Origin: Umbribacter vaginalis
Lineage (GTDB): Bacteria; Actinomycetota; Coriobacteriia; Coriobacteriales; Eggerthellaceae
Assembly: GCA_001552935.1 (NCBI GenBank)
Contig: KQ959685.1
Span: 1 to 64,000, forward strand
Direction of reading: 5' to 3'
Length of the DNA: 64,000 nucleotides
This document shows positions 7,932-44,760 of the stretch, piece by piece; the stretch's first letter is position 1; every line of letters begins with the position of its first letter. Both the position numbers and the translations under genes were made by a program. Under the pieces are notes generated by a model. That model was not told where the DNA came from and did not search any database. It saw nothing but the letters and a program-made list of their open reading frames with translations.

Positions 7932-8498
7932 CAACCTACGCAAAGCGAACGGGAACAAGAGTACGAACGTGAACACGAACGGGAAGAAGAACGGGAACAT
8001 CACAAGAGAATAGCGAACGCGGTATCAAACGTGAATACGAACGTGAACACTGCACGTTACTTCTGGTCAGCGCATGCACTTGCTTTCGTTTCATAACTCG
8101 ATGACGCTCGCTGTTCATCAATTGTAGTAGCTTTCGTTTCGTAATCCGATGGTTATTTCCGGCCAACGCTCGTAATCACTCTCATCGCATCGCCCGCCGT
8201 TACGTTCGTCGTATCGCCCGATATTACGTTCGTTTTGCCACCATGGGTTTGCCACCATGGGTTTGTCACCATAAGTCGAAACATGTAAGAAAAAGTTTGC
8301 AATAGATATTAGGCGCAACTACGATGCGGTTATATAATAAATGCAAGCTTTCGCGCAGACGACCACGCAGGCCACCGCACACGACCACGCAGGCGCCCAT
8401 GCAGACCACCACACACGACCACGCAGGCGCCCACACTACACATACTCTCAGCGTAGTGGCTTGCAACAGGCATGACATTCGATCTTGGAGGTACCATA
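7932..8498. repeat. Gap filled with several unrelated degenerate tandem repeats
   Basis: No gene is supported. Three kinds of array follow one another: a purine-rich GAACGGGAA/GAACGTGAA tract (about 7938-8050); a 24-bp repeat of ATCGCCCG..TTACGTTCGT (8189 and 8213) followed by two exact 14-bp units GCCACCATGGGTTT (8237-8264); and repeats of ACGACCACGCAGGC at 8359, 8381 and 8415. Units differ in sequence and length from array to array. Confidence 0.7.
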
Positions 8499-23918: not shown

Positions 23919-24629
23919 ATGGTACATAGGAACACCCATACTACGAACACCCATAATGAATTCGGTAAAATACCTGATAAAACACCTACTAACAAGCAAT
24001 CTGAAGTTTACACCATTGCTATAACGGGAAACAAAATTACGCGAAACTGGTGGGGTATGGCGTGGCAAAATAAAATCTTAAGCTACTCTGATTATGCAAA
24101 TAGGTTGCCACGTGCTCGTTCCTATGTGAGAACAGGCAAAGTACAAGAGCTTACTGTTATGCCAAATTGCGTAACTGCAAAAGTAAAAGGATCGCACGAG
24201 CATAGTTACAACGTTACTATCACAATCGATCCGCTCAGCAAAGAGGCTAAATCGCAGCTTATTTCTTTATTTACAGAACATATAAGCTCAATGCACGAAT
24301 TATTAACAGGTGCGTTTCCGAAAAGCTTTGCCGATGAACTCCTAGGTGGAGCGCATCCGCTGTTCCCTACCGATACAGAACTGCACTTACAATGTACCTG
24401 CCCCGATTGGGCATGTTTGTGCAAACACGTTGGGGCAGTATTGTATGGTATAGGAGTCGTGTTTGACAGTAATCCCAGTATGTTTTTTACCTTGCGCGAC
24501 TTAAAGCTTTCAAACCTTATGCAATCAACCATTGACGAACATCTTGATTTCTATCTGGAAAAAGCAGCACTCAAAAGCACGCGGCATATTGACGAAAACG
24601 CCATCACCAGCATATTTGGCGAACTGTAA
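23919..24629 (+). CDS. SWIM zinc-finger protein, partner of the SNF2 helicase
   Basis: A 236-residue protein with an early motif typical of the family (TRNWWGMAWQNKIL, then RARSYVRTGKV) and a SWIM zinc finger CTCPDWACLCKH (Cys-x-Cys ... Cys-x-His) around residue 160. SWIM domains are proposed to bind DNA or protein. In many Actinobacteria and Firmicutes a SWIM protein is encoded next to, or fused to, a SNF2 helicase; here the genes are separate but only 5 bp apart, with the ribosome site inside the helicase's last codons. The two probably act as a complex on DNA, perhaps in repair, but this is inference. Confidence 0.88.
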   Translation: MVHRNTHTTNTHNEFGKIPDKTPTNKQSEVYTIAITGNKITRNWWGMAWQNKILSYSDYANRLPRARSYVRTGKVQELTVMPNCVTAKVKGSHEHSYNVTITIDPLSKEAKSQLISLFTEHISSMHELLTGAFPKSFADELLGGAHPLFPTDTELHLQCTCPDWACLCKHVGAVLYGIGVVFDSNPSMFFTLRDLKLSNLMQSTIDEHLDFYLEKAALKSTRHIDENAITSIFGEL

Positions 24630-25082
24630 GGGCGAACGGTACCGGCGGGCTGTAAGGGCGAAGCGTGCGGACGTGTGATGGCGCAAAAGGCGCACGATAA
24701 GGGCGAACGGTACCAGCGAACGGTACCGGCGGGCTGTAAGGGCGAAGCGTGCGGACGCACGGCTTCGACCAACCGCACGAGCGAGGCGCACGGGCAAGCC
24801 TAAGCAAGCACGCACTTGGCGCTCAGTTGTCGCACAGGCTCGCGTATCGCTTGGCACTTAGTGCTCCGCACCCGTTTCCGCGTTCGTTGCAGCGTTCGTC
24901 CCCGCACCCGTTCCAACGCCCGTTCCTGCGTGCGTTCCCGCGTTCGTTGCCGCACCCGTTCCCACACAAAAAAGTTCTTGAAAGTAAGTATAAGCTAATT
25001 TATACTGCTTATATCGACGCAACCGTCGATATAAGCATCCACGCACAACGCACCACACGTTCCAACAGCAAGGGAGCAGCCT
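24630..25082. repeat. Gap dominated by GC-rich direct repeats
   Basis: A 41-bp sequence (CGAACGGTACCGGCGGGCTG...) is present at 24633-24673 and 24717-24757, 84 bp apart. A second, unrelated array of CGTTCGTTGC/CACCCGTTCC units fills about 24860-24965. No gene is supported. A promoter for the tetR gene is likely near 24990-25060 but no clear hexamers stand out. Confidence 0.7.
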
Positions 25083-30147: not shown

Positions 30148-30999
30148 ATGCCTGCTCAAATGCATATATCAACCAAGAACGAAAGCACCAGCGCCACGTC
30201 GTGCGAAGCTAACGCGCAAGCAGCCGCAAATGATACCGAACGCGCGAATATACCAGCAGCCGCACATGAAACCGCGCAATCAGCCGCAGAAATCGTCCGT
30301 TCGTTCTGCGACTCGCACGCGCACCCGTTCAACCCGAACCCCATCAGCAAATTCGTGGTACTAGTGCTTGCAGGTCTGTGCATCTTTAAGCACCTTCCTA
30401 CTGACACTCCACTGGTTATTACGCTGCTGGTATTTCTGTATTTGAACGACTACCGCGCAACCGTGCTAAAAGCGCTCATTGTGTACACGGTGCTCTGGTT
30501 TGTGCCGAATTTTGACGCGCTTTCGAGTCTGCCTGATGTGGCGAAGATGTTCTTGTGTTTCGCCTTCATGATAAAATTGTTCATACTGCCGTATTTAGCA
30601 GGAAAGTTCCTGGTGAAAGGCTCAAGCGTGAGCGCCATCCTTTCCTCACTTTACCTGTTGAAAGTACCGCAATGCGTCTCAATTCCCCTGGCGGTGATGT
30701 TTCGCTTTTTCCCAGCGTTCAAAGAAGAAAGCGCCGCCATTACCACCGCTATGCGCATTCGCAACATTTCTAAACGCCACCCAGCCCGCTACTTAGAATA
30801 CGTATTCGTGCCGCTGATGATTGTGTCGTGCAATCTTGCTGACGACATTACCAAAGCCGCAGAGTGCAAAGCTATATCCAACCCCGGTACCAAAACGCGC
30901 TACACCACCATTCGCTTTCGCGTGGTTGATTTTTTGTATATGGGCATTGTTGCGGCACTATTTGCAGGAGGAATTGCATGCTTACACTACGCAATCTAA
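30148..30999 (+). CDS. ecfT: ECF transporter transmembrane component EcfT
   Basis: A 283-residue protein with an unusual hydrophilic N-terminal extension of about 65 residues rich in Ala, Thr and Ser, followed by the EcfT membrane domain (about 68-280). The coupling helices carry the two expected motifs: AMRIRNISKR (Ala-x-x-x-Arg-type) and ADDITKAAECKAI. EcfT joins the S component to the two ATPases. It overlaps the ATPase gene by 22 bp. The N-terminal extension has the low-complexity character seen in many proteins of this window. Confidence 0.87.
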   Translation: MPAQMHISTKNESTSATSCEANAQAAANDTERANIPAAAHETAQSAAEIVRSFCDSHAHPFNPNPISKFVVLVLAGLCIFKHLPTDTPLVITLLVFLYLNDYRATVLKALIVYTVLWFVPNFDALSSLPDVAKMFLCFAFMIKLFILPYLAGKFLVKGSSVSAILSSLYLLKVPQCVSIPLAVMFRFFPAFKEESAAITTAMRIRNISKRHPARYLEYVFVPLMIVSCNLADDITKAAECKAISNPGTKTRYTTIRFRVVDFLYMGIVAALFAGGIACLHYAI

Positions 31000-32477
31000 G
31001 CGTGTTTTACGATGAAAACCAGGTGGTTCATTCTATCAACCTTAACGTATCGCCAGGTGAATGCGTTGTTTTGACGGGCGAAAGCGGAAGCGGCAAATCG
31101 AGCATCATAAATGCCGTGAACGGATTGGGCGCACGCTACGATAATGCGCGCATCGAAGGCACCATCGCCCTTGATGGCGACGAACTTACTCAAAAGCAAA
31201 TCTACGAAATTGCAATGCTTGCCTCGTCGGTGTTTCAAAATCCCAAAACGCATTTTTTTAATGTTGATACAACGCAAGAGCTGCTATTCTTCCTAGAAAA
31301 TACTGGGGTGCCTAAACAGAACATGCAAAAGCGCTTGCAAGACTTACTTTCCTTGTTTCCGATTGCTCACTTGCTTAACAGAAGCATTTTTGAGCTGTCG
31401 GGCGGCGAAAAGCAAATTCTATGCTTGGCCAGCGCTTATATTTCAGGTTGTAAACTGATACTGCTTGATGAGCCTACCTCGAATTTGGATCACATCTCAA
31501 TTGCGCTGCTTACTGACATGCTCAAATGCTTAAAACAGCAGGGCATTACTTTGCTTATTGCCGAGCATCGCTTGTATTACCTGCGCGACATACTGGATCG
31601 GCTTATTCACATTCAGAAAGGGGAAATACAACGCTGCTATACACAAGAGGAATTTGCCCACTTAACCTGCGATGAGCTGCATGCGCGCGGGCTTAGGAGC
31701 AATAGCGACAACGCGCTTACGGTACCTGAATTGCTGCCGTACGCGGCAAACACGAGCGCCGAGCCTGGTACGGAAGCTGGTACGGAGCTACACTCGGAGC
31801 CTGGTACGGAAGCTGGTACGGAGCCTGGTGCGGAAGCTGGTACGGAGCTTCGCATAGAGAAGCTTGCGCTGAGCTTCTCAACGCAGCGTAACGTTCGCGC
31901 AAACGGCCTGTTCATAAGCGGCCTTACGTTCCAAACGAACAACATTTATGGCATTGTTGGAAAAAACGGCTGCGGCAAATCGAGCTTCATCAAAAGTCTG
32001 ATAGGCGTTATGAAGCGCTCCAAAGAAACCGTCTTCTACCAGGGAAAACAATGCAACAAACGAAGGCGGGTTGCACTGTCGTCGCTGGTAATGCAAGATG
32101 TGAATAGCCAGCTTTTTAGCGAGTCGGTTGAACACGAGCTTACGCTTACTCACACAAACATGACGGAGGCTTCCCTTGATGCGCTTTTAGAACAGTTGAA
32201 CATCCGCGCATTTAAGCAGGCGCACCCCATGAGTTTGTCGGGAGGCCAAAAGCAGCGCGTTGCCATTGCCACCAGCGTCGTTGATGGCGCGGCGCTGATG
32301 TTTTTCGATGAGCCAACCAGCGGCATGGATTACAAAAACATGCTTGCCATTTCGCGCTGCATTCAAGCACTTAAAACCCGTAAGCGCATCATTTTCATCG
32401 TTTCGCATGATGTGGAATTTCTAAATCTCACGTGCGATTATGCCTTAAATATAGAACGCTTCGCGGCGGTGCAGTAA
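30978..32477 (+). CDS. Fused double ATPase of the ECF transporter
   Basis: A 499-residue protein containing two ATPase domains that are usually separate EcfA1 and EcfA2 subunits. Domain 1 (about 1-230): Walker A GESGSGKSS, signature LSGGEKQILC, Walker B LILLDEPTSNLD. Domain 2 (about 291-499): Walker A GKNGCGKSS, signature LSGGQKQRVAIA, Walker B MFFDEPTSGMD. The hinge (about 261-290) is a minisatellite of four-residue units (EPGT, EAGT and variants). AGGAGG lies 6 bp before the ATG. It powers the S-component/EcfT complex at the membrane. Confidence 0.92.
   Translation: MLTLRNLSVFYDENQVVHSINLNVSPGECVVLTGESGSGKSSIINAVNGLGARYDNARIEGTIALDGDELTQKQIYEIAMLASSVFQNPKTHFFNVDTTQELLFFLENTGVPKQNMQKRLQDLLSLFPIAHLLNRSIFELSGGEKQILCLASAYISGCKLILLDEPTSNLDHISIALLTDMLKCLKQQGITLLIAEHRLYYLRDILDRLIHIQKGEIQRCYTQEEFAHLTCDELHARGLRSNSDNALTVPELLPYAANTSAEPGTEAGTELHSEPGTEAGTEPGAEAGTELRIEKLALSFSTQRNVRANGLFISGLTFQTNNIYGIVGKNGCGKSSFIKSLIGVMKRSKETVFYQGKQCNKRRRVALSSLVMQDVNSQLFSESVEHELTLTHTNMTEASLDALLEQLNIRAFKQAHPMSLSGGQKQRVAIATSVVDGAALMFFDEPTSGMDYKNMLAISRCIQALKTRKRIIFIVSHDVEFLNLTCDYALNIERFAAVQ
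31758..31847 (+). repeat. 12-bp coding minisatellite in the EcfA hinge
   Basis: About seven and a half consecutive 12-bp units (GAGCCTGGTACG, GAAGCTGGTACG and variants) encode EPGT/EAGT tetrapeptides between the two ATPase domains. The 24-bp pair GAGCCTGGTACG-GAAGCTGGTACG recurs, which shows expansion by doubling. Confidence 0.88.
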
Positions 32478-39283: not shown

Positions 39284-41521
39284 CTAAGAGGCTTGCTTAA
39301 GACAAATGCTCCGCGAAATAATATAGCAGATAACGAAATACCCAATATAGCCTACGAGTACCACAGCTAAAATCTGAGCAAGAATACCACCTGCCTGGGA
39401 AAGTGAACCAATTTCTACTTTGATAGCAGTAATAAATTGCAAGGCGTGCACCAACGCAAGCGCAGCAGGAACAAAGAAATAGAAGCATACCTGCGCAAAC
39501 AGCGCGCGGCTTGCCATGCCCGTTGTAGCACCAAGCTGCAGCAGTTTTGTATAATCATGGCGCGTGTCAAGGGCTTGCGTGAGCTGTTGTATTGCAAGCA
39601 AACACGCAGCTGCAACCAACAAAATAAGCCCCAGGTATATCGCCATAAACGAGCCAATACCCTTCAAAACACTTCCCATAACAACAACCTGATACAAGTT
39701 GACAATAGATATTTTGTTCCACGGTGCTTGAATATTATTTTCCCAGGTGGCCGGATGTTTACTGGTGCCAAGAACATCGCGAATAAAGCTCTGCTGTGCT
39801 TCGCGTGATGTATCTTTCAAAAAGCCAATCGCACTACATCCATACAATTGCGAGCTATTATCGATAAAACTATCAGGCACAACAAGGGTTATTGGGTATC
39901 CTGTAAAAATTCCTACAAAATCGTTATAGTCCAGCAGCGTCGTAAGTGTTATGTTGTGCCCACCAACCCCAACAGGAATATCGCCGGTAACGTAAGGGGC
40001 AAGCGCCTTATAGCTTGGCTCCATCAACGCAAGCAAGGCAACCTGATTATCCGCAAGCGATACGGTAGGCTTTCCTAAGTGCTGGAGCAGGGCATTCACT
40101 TCAGAAACTTTCATATACAAAATGTTTGTGTACCCTTTTAATTCGCTGGGGATGGCAGCGCTTTCTGCATCATTATCGTTGCTGCTATCTGCGGGTGTTG
40201 AAAAAATGGAAAAACCATGTTCAGACTGATTTTGTGCAGATGCATCGGTGTTATGTGCTGGACGTACCGTAGGAGCTGCCGTTTCACTGTGATGTGCAAT
40301 GATTTGCTTGAACAGCGTTTTTGCGGCATCCTTAGCATCGCTGTTTTCAAACTCCTTTCCAAGCGTTGAGTAAAACCGAAAACCTGCTGTATACGCAACA
40401 TAGTCGTTCCAATGGTCAACATGAGTTGATACATAGCGTGCAATATCGTAATCGGCTGCTGAGGTACTATCAGCAGCAAGCGCGCCTTCGCCAGCACTAA
40501 GCTTGTCGTTATCTACGGTATCAGCCATTACCATAACGCGCGAAGTATCGATATCTTTTAGCTGCCCGTCGATACTACTTACCACAGCAAAACCAAGTGA
40601 TAGGCCGCACAAAGCAACAAATACCGTTGCACACACCAGCGTAAGCGATGCCCACGCGCTGTTCACAGATTTTGCAAATTGACGCACAACGTAGCAGTTC
40701 AGCCCGCGCAAATAGAGCGGCTTTATCGATTTGGTAATCACCACAATAAAGCCCGAAAGCGAAAAGAAAAAGAGCGCTGTCCCGAGTGTTACAAACAGCG
40801 TTGCCTGCGCAAAAACGGAACTATCTGCATGGGTGCTCAGCCAAAATTTCAGCAACGAATACGAGTAGCCAATGCACACCAACGACACCACAAACAGCGC
40901 AAACAGCACGTAGGGGTTTCGCAATTTGAAGCGATCGCTAACCAGCGACGACTTGAACAATATCGCTAAGCGAACGCGTGAAATGCACAGCGACGTTATC
41001 AGCGATGACACAGCAAAAATTACGCAGAACAGCTCCGTTGTAAACAGCAGCGCTTCCTGTGAAATGCTAAACGTGAACATGTCGGGCGGAAAGTCGAACA
41101 GCGAGGAAATGTACGGCGATGTGAACTGCGATACAAGAATGCCCAGGCCCAAGCCAACAATCAGCGACACCACGGCACACAGCACGTTTTCAATAAGAAT
41201 GATAAGCGCCAGGTGCATTTTTTTCATGCCAAGCAGGATATAAGTTGCAAATTCTCGCCGGCGACGCTTCATAAAAAATAAATTTGACGACACCACCAAA
41301 AACATCACAATAACGCCAATCAGAACAGAAAGCGCCTGAATAAACATCTTCATCAGCTGATACATGCGACCCATATCGGGGGAAAGATCGGTGTAAAACC
41401 CCTGGCTGAGCAGCGCGTTGAAGCTGTAAAACATCATGATGGAAAGGCTGAGCGTTACAAAATAAATGGAAAAATCGCGCAGGGAGCGCCGCACATTTCC
41501 AAAAGCAATTTTAATGAACAT
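39284..41521 (-). CDS. BceB-type ABC transporter permease (FtsX family)
   Basis: A permease of about 745 residues with ten predicted membrane segments and a large extracytoplasmic domain (about 320-570), the layout of BceB/VraG permeases that free lipid II-cycle intermediates from peptide antibiotics and signal to the kinase. It begins MFIKIAFGNVRRSLRDFSIY, typical of the family. The ATG at 41521 lies inside the end of the ATPase gene (overlap 11 bp) with a GGGGGTGAAG stretch before it. The external domain contains a low-complexity Ala/Ser/Asp-rich piece (around 395-455). It works with the ATPase at 41511 and the kinase at 42600. Confidence 0.88.
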   Translation of the reverse strand: MFIKIAFGNVRRSLRDFSIYFVTLSLSIMMFYSFNALLSQGFYTDLSPDMGRMYQLMKMFIQALSVLIGVIVMFLVVSSNLFFMKRRRREFATYILLGMKKMHLALIILIENVLCAVVSLIVGLGLGILVSQFTSPYISSLFDFPPDMFTFSISQEALLFTTELFCVIFAVSSLITSLCISRVRLAILFKSSLVSDRFKLRNPYVLFALFVVSLVCIGYSYSLLKFWLSTHADSSVFAQATLFVTLGTALFFFSLSGFIVVITKSIKPLYLRGLNCYVVRQFAKSVNSAWASLTLVCATVFVALCGLSLGFAVVSSIDGQLKDIDTSRVMVMADTVDNDKLSAGEGALAADSTSAADYDIARYVSTHVDHWNDYVAYTAGFRFYSTLGKEFENSDAKDAAKTLFKQIIAHHSETAAPTVRPAHNTDASAQNQSEHGFSIFSTPADSSNDNDAESAAIPSELKGYTNILYMKVSEVNALLQHLGKPTVSLADNQVALLALMEPSYKALAPYVTGDIPVGVGGHNITLTTLLDYNDFVGIFTGYPITLVVPDSFIDNSSQLYGCSAIGFLKDTSREAQQSFIRDVLGTSKHPATWENNIQAPWNKISIVNLYQVVVMGSVLKGIGSFMAIYLGLILLVAAACLLAIQQLTQALDTRHDYTKLLQLGATTGMASRALFAQVCFYFFVPAALALVHALQFITAIKVEIGSLSQAGGILAQILAVVLVGYIGYFVICYIISRSICLKQAS

Positions 41522-42326
41522 CGGCGTCTTCACCCCCAAGGTAGCTTACAACGTCCATGATACTGGCGAAGAATTCTTTGCGGCTTTGAGTGCCGCGCTC
41601 CATCTGCGAAAATATAAGGCCGTCTTTGATAAACACCACACGCGATGAATATGATGAGGCAACTGAATCGTGAGTGACCATGATAATGGTTGCTGCTTCC
41701 GCCTGGTTAAGCTGCACAAATGCCTCTAGCAGATTGCGCGAATTTTTGGAATCGAGCGCTCCTGTTGGCTCGTCAGCCAAAATAAGAGCAGGACGCATAA
41801 TAATGGCACGCGCCGCCGCCACGCGCTGGCGCTGACCACCGCTCATTTGCTGGGGAAACTTATGCAACACGTCGCTTATATTAAGGCGCAGCGCAATTTG
41901 CGTAACACGCCCTTTAATATCTGACGTGCGGAATTTTGCAATCGTCAGCGGCAATGCAATGTTCTCATAAGCGGTAAGCGACTCAATAAGATTGGCATCT
42001 TGGAATATAAATCCCAGTTCATCATGGCGAAAACGCGCGAGTTTTTTGCCTTTCAGCGCATCAACGGGCGTGTTGTTGATGCTAATTGAGCCGGCAGTTG
42101 GTTTGTCAATGGTTGAAATGCAGTTCAGTAAGGTTGTTTTACCTGATCCTGAAGGACCCATGATGCTTACGAATTCGCCCTGTTTAACGCGTAAATCAAT
42201 GCCGTTTAATGCCTTGGTGATGCTTTTGCGTGAACCAAAATATTTTTTCACGTGCGAGCATTCGAGAATACATGGTTCAGAATCGGTGTGCTGGTTATCA
42301 GCACGTTCAGTGTCAACCAGTGACAT
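41511..42326 (-). CDS. BceA-type ABC transporter ATPase
   Basis: A 271-residue ATPase of the MacB/BceA type. Walker A GPSGSGKTT, Q-loop FIFQDANLI, signature MSGGQRQRVAAARA, Walker B LILADEPTGALDS and switch His in VTHDS. GGAGG lies close before the ATG. The last residues overlap the permease start. With the BceB-type permease it forms a resistance transporter against cell-wall-active peptides, and it is probably induced by the two-component system upstream on the same strand. Confidence 0.93.
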   Translation of the reverse strand: MSLVDTERADNQHTDSEPCILECSHVKKYFGSRKSITKALNGIDLRVKQGEFVSIMGPSGSGKTTLLNCISTIDKPTAGSISINNTPVDALKGKKLARFRHDELGFIFQDANLIESLTAYENIALPLTIAKFRTSDIKGRVTQIALRLNISDVLHKFPQQMSGGQRQRVAAARAIIMRPALILADEPTGALDSKNSRNLLEAFVQLNQAEAATIIMVTHDSVASSYSSRVVFIKDGLIFSQMERGTQSRKEFFASIMDVVSYLGGEDADVH

Positions 42327-42599: not shown

Positions 42600-43748
42600 C
42601 TACATTACGTCATGAAGCGCCGAACTAAAGCACAAGCACACGGTAGTTCCCTTCCCTACCTGCGATGATAATCGAACCGACATGTTCATCTTGCGCGCTA
42701 ACTTGTCAACCAAAAACAATCCAATGCCTGTTGACTTCGCATATGCGCGGCCATTTTCACCTGTAAATGCCTGTTCAAACACACGAGAACAATCGCTTGC
42801 AGGAATGCCAATGCCTTCGTCACGTATCGACAGGACGGTTGTTTTCACACCAAAATCATTGGTCTGCTGAGTGGCACTAATGTCGATGTATGAAGCTTCT
42901 GCCTGCGGTTTTCTGTATTTGATGGCATTCGAAATAATTTGCTCTATCATAAACTGCACCCATTTCGCATCGCCGCGCACGTTCACGTTCAAATTGCTTA
43001 AGCGCGGGTACACTTTCGCAAGAATCATGTGGCGGCTATACCGGTGAATGGCGGCTTTAACAACCTGGTCAAGTTGAATATTTTTGATAATGAAGTCGTT
43101 TTCAAGATTGCCGCTGCGCGCATAATACAGTGTTTGGTCAACCAGCTCTTCGATGCGTTTGATTTGTAATCCAAGACGCTGATTCACTGATGCAGTAGCA
43201 GAAAAGGAGAAATCGCCTGCTTGTTTACATTCCCCTGCTTGCGCACGTTCTCCAGCTGGCATACAATCCCCTGTTTGCAAAGACATTTCCCCTGCTTGCA
43301 GCGGCACGTCGCTGTTGCGTAACAACAATTCACACGCAGCAAGCGGAGTTTTAATTTCGTGCACCCACAGTTCCGTATATTGACGATAATCACCCTGTTC
43401 TTGCTTGGTTTTTTCAATTTGAGAAACCATCGCTTGCGTCATCGTTTTCATAAGGGAAAGCACAAAAGCCTGCTCACGCGTGTGTGGACTTGATGTAAGC
43501 GTACTGCACAAATACGCCTGCGAACTCAGTGAGCGCGAAAGGTCGCTTAGTTCGCGATAAAAAGAACGAATGCGCAGGTAATCGGCCACAAGCACCAGCA
43601 CTGTTACCAGTGCAATTACTCCAAGAATCAAAATCAGCACGCCAAGCGCCACGCGGGCAATAAGCATCCCCAGCACCGATAACAGCAGCGCAAAACACAG
43701 CAGCAACAGCCATGCTAAGCGATCAATGACGTAGTTTGCAAACGTCAT
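42600..43748 (-). CDS. BceS-type sensor histidine kinase with a minisatellite insertion
   Basis: A 382-residue intramembrane-sensing kinase. The ATG at 43748 follows AAAGGAG and is preferred over a longer frame. Two closely spaced membrane segments (about 12-30 and 35-55) with almost no external loop are the hallmark of BceS. The H-box is ELWVHEIKTPLAACELLL (His130). Immediately after it, residues about 149-180 consist of six-residue units of the type QAGEMS/QTGDCM, which separates the H-box helix from the second helix (LGLQIKRIEELVDQTLYYARS). The ATPase domain has an N-box (QIISNAIKYRK), RDEGIGIP and KSTGIGLFLVDKL. It partners the regulator at 43954. Confidence 0.88.
   Translation of the reverse strand: MTFANYVIDRLAWLLLLCFALLLSVLGMLIARVALGVLILILGVIALVTVLVLVADYLRIRSFYRELSDLSRSLSSQAYLCSTLTSSPHTREQAFVLSLMKTMTQAMVSQIEKTKQEQGDYRQYTELWVHEIKTPLAACELLLRNSDVPLQAGEMSLQTGDCMPAGERAQAGECKQAGDFSFSATASVNQRLGLQIKRIEELVDQTLYYARSGNLENDFIIKNIQLDQVVKAAIHRYSRHMILAKVYPRLSNLNVNVRGDAKWVQFMIEQIISNAIKYRKPQAEASYIDISATQQTNDFGVKTTVLSIRDEGIGIPASDCSRVFEQAFTGENGRAYAKSTGIGLFLVDKLARKMNMSVRLSSQVGKGTTVCLCFSSALHDVM
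43216..43300 (-). repeat. 18-bp coding minisatellite in the kinase gene
   Basis: On the plus strand, CCTGCTTG or variants start at 43216, 43234, 43252, 43270 and 43291, that is spacings of 18, 18, 18 and 21 bp, all multiples of three. On the coding strand they give hexapeptides such as QAGEMS, QTGDCM and QAGECK. Confidence 0.88.
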
Positions 43749-43953: not shown

Positions 43954-44760
43954 CTACACCAGACAATAGCCAATACCGCGATGCGTCACAATTGCTCCCT
44001 GCGCTCCGATGCGATCGAGTATCTGGCGAACGTGGCTGATATTAACCGTTAGCGTGTTGTCGTCGATGAACTCGTCGGTTTGCCACAGCTCCTCTTGTAT
44101 GCGCTGACGTGGGACAACAACCCCTGCATTGCGCATCAGTAAGGCAAGAATTTTCATCTCGTTTTTGGTGAGCGTTGCCGTAGAACACGCCGCGTTGCGC
44201 TCGGACGTGTTGGCGGCGGATGCCGATGCCAACTCCGAAGCGCCACCGTTCGCAGATGTCAATGCCGAAGTGGCAGAGAGCGCAGTTGGGCTGGTCACGG
44301 GCGCGTTTTCATGATGCGAAATAGTGCAGGTACTTAAATTCAACACCAGCGATTTATGACGCAGAATCGATGAAGTACCTGATGAATTGGCATACACGCG
44401 ATTTAAGACGCGTTCGATACGCGCAAGCAACAACTGCGGATTGTAAGGTTTGGCAACAAAATCATCCGCCCCCATCGTAAGCAACATGAGCTCGTCAAGT
44501 TGAGAGTTTCTGCTGGTAACCACAATAATAGGTACGCTCGACTTTTCGCGCAGGGCACGGCAGAGCACCTGCCCATCAACACCAGGAAGCCCTAAGTCAA
44601 GCAGCAATAAATGCGGTTGCTGTGCAAAAATTTCATCGAGCGCCGCATCCAAGCTATGCAACGCGCGCACTACATACGCCTGATAACCTTGCGAAACAAG
44701 CAAATGCTGCAACTGAAACGCAACTTCTGAATTGTCCTCAACGATGCACAGCTTATACAT
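43954..44760 (-). CDS. BceR-type response regulator with a low-complexity insertion
   Basis: A 268-residue OmpR-family regulator. The ATG at 44760 (MYKLCIVEDN) is chosen because the receiver domain begins there. Asp55 in LLLLDLGLPG is the phosphorylation site and Lys104 is in DDFVAKPY. The winged-helix domain starts at about 130, but residues about 152-195 are an Ala/Ser/Thr/Asn-rich insert between the small beta sheet (LNLSTCTISHHE) and the first helix (LTKNEMKILALLM); the domain then continues normally to GIGYCLV. Typical relatives are about 225 residues long, so the insert accounts for the excess. It probably activates the transporter genes downstream. A 205-bp gap separates it from the kinase gene. 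Confidence 0.9.
   Translation of the reverse strand: MYKLCIVEDNSEVAFQLQHLLVSQGYQAYVVRALHSLDAALDEIFAQQPHLLLLDLGLPGVDGQVLCRALREKSSVPIIVVTSRNSQLDELMLLTMGADDFVAKPYNPQLLLARIERVLNRVYANSSGTSSILRHKSLVLNLSTCTISHHENAPVTSPTALSATSALTSANGGASELASASAANTSERNAACSTATLTKNEMKILALLMRNAGVVVPRQRIQEELWQTDEFIDDNTLTVNISHVRQILDRIGAQGAIVTHRGIGYCLV

Follow-up and report, generated by a model that had tools for sequence, protein, structure and literature searches.

A degenerate tandem-repeat insert between the DHp helices of a BceS-type histidine kinase, in an Eggerthellaceae genome rich in tandem arrays

In BceS, the turn that joins the two helices of the DHp bundle is right-handed, which implies autophosphorylation in trans (PMC10314905), and a passage of PMC5956149, citing Ashenberg 2013, holds that the choice between cis and trans depends on the length and handedness of the loop. 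Short variable segments of bacterial genomes have been attributed to replication slippage between short repeats (PMC2884548). Our search of the literature found no relevant paper on tandem repeats, whether in DHp turns or in the genomes of Eggerthellaceae. Here we describe a histidine kinase, P0001, encoded in a 64,000-nucleotide stretch of DNA (the window) from the Eggerthellaceae genome G000, in which this turn carries a long, worn tandem repeat.

The host kinase and its neighbours

P0001 lies in a module with the gene order regulator, kinase, ATPase, permease, the OmpR-type regulator being immediately upstream of the kinase (Table 1). Its identity as a histidine kinase, proposed in the first-pass annotation, is borne out by a HATPase_c match (1e-19), by a match to BceS among PDB sequences (1.2e-25) and by Foldseek, in which the best match of the AlphaFold2 model (mean pLDDT 84.8) is 8g3a, also BceS. 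The phospho-acceptor is His130, within the sequence HEIKTP. Helices 11–30 and 35–73 of the model, separated by a 4-residue linker, correspond to the two transmembrane helices and very short extracellular loop of BceS-type kinases, and the transmembrane topology is predicted on this basis. P0001 shares with this type a BceS-related H-box and HATPase_c domain, and neighbours comprising an OmpR-type regulator and a BceAB-like ABC transporter; it lacks the short DHp turn of constant length that is usual in homologues and serves as an informal mark of the type. The nearest homologues found are only 36–39% identical. Matches to BceB, PsdB and BceS place the module in the antimicrobial-peptide (Bce) type, in agreement with the earlier link to peptide antibiotics. 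Antimicrobial-peptide sensing can reasonably be inferred from the family, and by analogy P0001 probably detects peptide antibiotics.

Table 1. Positions in the window of the kinase, its repeat units and the neighbouring genes
Feature	Position	Strand	Size	Basis or detail
FtsX-type permease, BceB-like	39284-41539	minus		FtsX; BceB 1.8e-17, PsdB 4.5e-13
ABC transporter ATPase (BceA position)	41511-42326	minus		ABC_tran 3.6e-34
BceS-type intramembrane-sensing histidine kinase P0001	42603-43748	minus	382 aa	HATPase_c and BceS matches
Whole insert between DHp helices, residues ~148-187	43188-43307	minus	38 aa extra	Spacing and AlphaFold2
Five-unit degenerate tandem array	43206-43301	minus	7, 7, 6, 6, 6 codons	Core CAAGCAGGGGAA
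Unit QAGDFS	43206-43223	minus	18 bp	
Unit QAGECK	43224-43241	minus	18 bp	
Unit PAGERA	43242-43259	minus	18 bp	
Unit LQTGDCM	43260-43280	minus	21 bp	
Unit LQAGEMS	43281-43301	minus	21 bp	
OmpR-type response regulator	43954-44760	minus	268 aa	Response_reg 3.4e-21, Trans_reg_C 7.3e-22

A worn repeat at the DHp turn

The first-pass annotation described an 18-bp minisatellite at this site. The array exists essentially where it was placed, but its period is not uniform, two units being 21 bp long and three 18 bp. At a lag of 18 the array matches itself at 35 of 54 bases, a value reached by 0/2000 codon shuffles (maximum 32) and 0/2000 dinucleotide shuffles (maximum 31). The five units have in common a 12-base core, CAAGCAGGGGAA, with pairwise identities of 7–12 bases out of 12; outside the core, the six to nine further bases of a unit have diverged. 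With tandem units in the range of ~10–100 bp and a self-match above chance, the array is a minisatellite, though a degenerate one. The degree of wear is shown by its invisibility to Tandem Repeats Finder (TRF), which does not report it even at a score of 30.

The same annotation had read the array as a possible contingency locus, a hypermutable tandem repeat in which changes in unit number could tune the response of the kinase to peptide antibiotics. The tandem units, with lengths in multiples of three, and the surrounding Bce-type module are consistent with such a role, as is the site, a turn to which the passage of PMC5956149 cited above ascribes control of the autophosphorylation mode. Contingency loci have near-identical units, however, whereas here the cores differ at up to five of 12 bases, the tails are little alike, periods of 21 and 18 bp are mixed and the array escapes TRF. 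Tandem arrays as impure as this should be stable. Gain or loss of whole units, moreover, keeps the reading frame, so that the gene cannot be switched on and off by frameshift, and like inserts are found in essential enzymes (below), where tuning makes little sense. We regard a tuning role as quite improbable.

The insert as a whole extends a few residues past the repeats on either side. In agreement with the first-pass annotation, it follows the H-box helix and precedes the second helix of the DHp bundle when P0001 is aligned with 29 homologues of related genomes, and in the AlphaFold2 model it is flanked by helices 91–146 and 188–212. From the H-box to the second DHp helix P0001 has 66 aa. 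Among the 84 kinases scored (the loci in which both landmarks were found, P0001 included), 77 have a spacing of 28 aa, one of 25 aa and five of 32–44 aa. The insert was found in no other kinase of this set, in keeping with the earlier remark that loci of this kind are rare inside kinase cores. A paralogous kinase of the same genome, at 26 kb of contig C11, has an ordinary DHp turn. In the five kinases of intermediate spacing, one of which is from Collinsella, the extra sequence is unrelated to the repeat, indicating that the DHp turn tolerates length.

Values of pLDDT fall below 50 at insert residues 150–163 and 170–183, and the model predicts a disordered insert with the kinase core intact. 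Among the units, conservation is higher in the core codons (Q A G E/D) than in the two-codon tails, a difference that could reflect selection on the peptide and would run counter to neutrality. The QAGE/QAGD repeats might then be a selected loop, a flexible spacer or a docking site through which cis or trans autophosphorylation, or the interaction with the response regulator or transporter, is altered. Given the right-handed turn of BceS and its trans autophosphorylation (PMC10314905), a long loop could matter, and the same turn has been lengthened independently in five other kinases, by 4–16 aa. Against this, the insert is disordered in the model and without counterpart in homologues, the tails are unconstrained, and like inserts occur in unrelated proteins; a selected function thus seems unlikely, if less so than a tuning locus.

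The insert DNA is single-copy in the genome. Derivation from a dispersed element was considered and rejected, there being no second genomic copy of this DNA, and GCAGGGGAA-type words occur elsewhere only singly. The kinase is absent from the three congeners searched, and no close P0001 orthologue was found among 138 genomes of the family. A scan of GTDB contigs, which possibly left out the window's own genome, gave no orthologue from the same or a close species, and viral contigs gave none for comparison of unit number. An error of assembly or binning is very improbable: G000 (1.70 Mb) is a draft in 50 contigs, ~92% complete, and repeats are error-prone in assembly, but the array spans only ~96 bp, its units differ and are therefore easily assembled, and the frame is open across 417 codons on a 163-kb contig.

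Arrays and inserts elsewhere in the genome

Tandem arrays are abundant in G000, with 20.5 per 100 kb in a 464-kb sample searched with TRF, compared with 3.0 and 3.9 in the congeners G002 and G003 (540 kb each). A third congener, G001, is array-rich too (17.1 per 100 kb in the 140 kb sampled), and the relatives G022, of the same family, and G011 have 5.7 and 7.5 respectively; Markov nulls give 0–2.9 over all genomes and 0.6–1.1 in the comparison of G000 with G002 and G003. Within ORFs of at least 250 aa, array periods are divisible by three in 27 of 29 cases, as against 16 of 37 in intergenic DNA (p = 2e-5), a contrast which suggests that arrays form throughout the genome and persist within genes only if they keep the frame. 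The G+C content of G000 is 46.7%, that of the sampled congeners 60–65%. Clusters of minisatellites, mostly intergenic and rich in GGGAACG/CGTTCCC-like words, are also seen in the window at 24618–24962 and 7962–8434.

A search of 25 genomes from the same family and the same order gave no match to canonical MutS (MutS1). Because array-poor genomes are among these, its absence cannot by itself explain the array excess, and loss of mismatch repair was rejected as a special cause.

Comparison of orthologues reveals a similar asymmetry in conserved proteins. In pairs at least 45% identical, drawn from partial genome samples in which the congeners are more GC-rich than G000, inserts of at least 10 aa number 11 to 1 for G000 against G002 and 10 to 2 against G003; G002 against G003 gives 3 to 3. 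Compared with control segments from the genes that carry them, the G000 inserts have a more tandem-like character (p = 0.0016). Only ~5% of them score strongly as tandem and most are not clearly repetitive, so slippage may not be the source of all of them.

In leucyl-tRNA synthetase (L135:931–3732; contig C39, ~101–104 kb) a repeat insert of ~35 residues rich in glycine and alanine, SAGAAGGAGTAGGASDAGVAGSAGV..., lies near residues 813–856. No relative with a correctly extracted synthetase has it at that position, several extracted frames having been excluded because they are not the synthetase. Other array-bearing ORFs match uroporphyrinogen-III methyltransferase, 5-formyltetrahydrofolate cyclo-ligase and ABC ATPases. 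We left out of the insert count the arrays before a GatB match and near the N-terminus of a TatD-family ORF, since these may precede the actual start codon.

Several further arrays were observed in coding sequence. An ABC ATPase (L139:18148–19212, minus) has two adjacent 18-bp arrays near its C-terminus, of DTLLQK-type (two units) and AEKISP-type (four units), with the same unit length as the kinase array. An RlmD-like methyltransferase (L130:13223–15124, minus) is 633 aa long compared with a 432-position model and has three separate tandem arrays. A 45-bp-period array lies near residues 234–285 of a 532-aa glutamyl-tRNA reductase (L141:16179–17777), and one of 36-bp period, with PGTEAGTE-type units, is in the inter-domain linker of a fused ECF-type double ATPase (window 30978–32477).

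Origin of the insert and comparison with known systems

The presence of like inserts in housekeeping proteins of G000 points to a general mutational process, and the best-supported conclusion is that the kinase array is one case of this genome-wide process and not likely a special switch. We propose, with a probability of roughly two in three, that the insert is a minisatellite born of slippage, which the DHp turn tolerates and which is now wearing away; any effect on autophosphorylation would be modest at most. Tandem duplication by replication slippage would have created it, in a lineage that generates such arrays throughout its genome, and the array would have landed between the DHp helices of a kinase of BceS type, in a turn that is one of the few sites in a kinase core to tolerate extra length. 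There it would form a disordered 38-residue loop at the membrane-distal end of the DHp bundle, leaving the core foldable. Purifying selection would hold the insert in frame while point mutation now erodes its units. Such an insert may be nearly neutral; if it acts at all, it would mainly do so by slackening the tight turn on which the choice between cis and trans autophosphorylation depends.

A broader and more tentative proposal joins two ideas: that this Eggerthellaceae lineage, divergent in G+C content from its congeners, is seeding conserved proteins with slippage-born inserts, signalling cores and translation enzymes included, a bacterial parallel to the low-complexity inserts in certain eukaryotic parasites; and that the kinase insert has changed the DHp turn and the mode of autophosphorylation. 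This is possible, though we would not favour it. If the main proposal, of a decaying insert of slippage origin, is right, what had been supposed to be a hypermutable antibiotic-sensing switch gives way to a lineage that lengthens the loops of conserved proteins by tandem duplication. Natural inserts of this kind would then map where essential enzymes and kinase cores accept length, and they would raise the question of why one species makes and keeps many of them when its near relatives do not.

Of the systems described to date, BceS of Bacillus subtilis (BceRS-BceAB) is the closest to P0001, with two transmembrane helices, a very short linker, H-box, DHp and HATPase domains, and P0001 likewise adjoins an OmpR-type regulator and a BceAB-like transporter; it differs in that its tight DHp turn is expanded by the 38-aa disordered insert. 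The same turn is lengthened in the five kinases L109 (Collinsella sp. BA40), L015, L018 and L020 (one family of the same order) and L017, but there the added sequence is non-tandem. The serine-aspartate repeats of staphylococcal adhesins, which are contingency loci or VNTRs (PMC3324548), resemble the P0001 array in being intragenic in-frame minisatellites, whereas the P0001 units are few, uneven and strongly diverged. The survey of slippage in PMC2884548 concerns variation within species; our comparison is between species, with an array density that is unusually high in one lineage.
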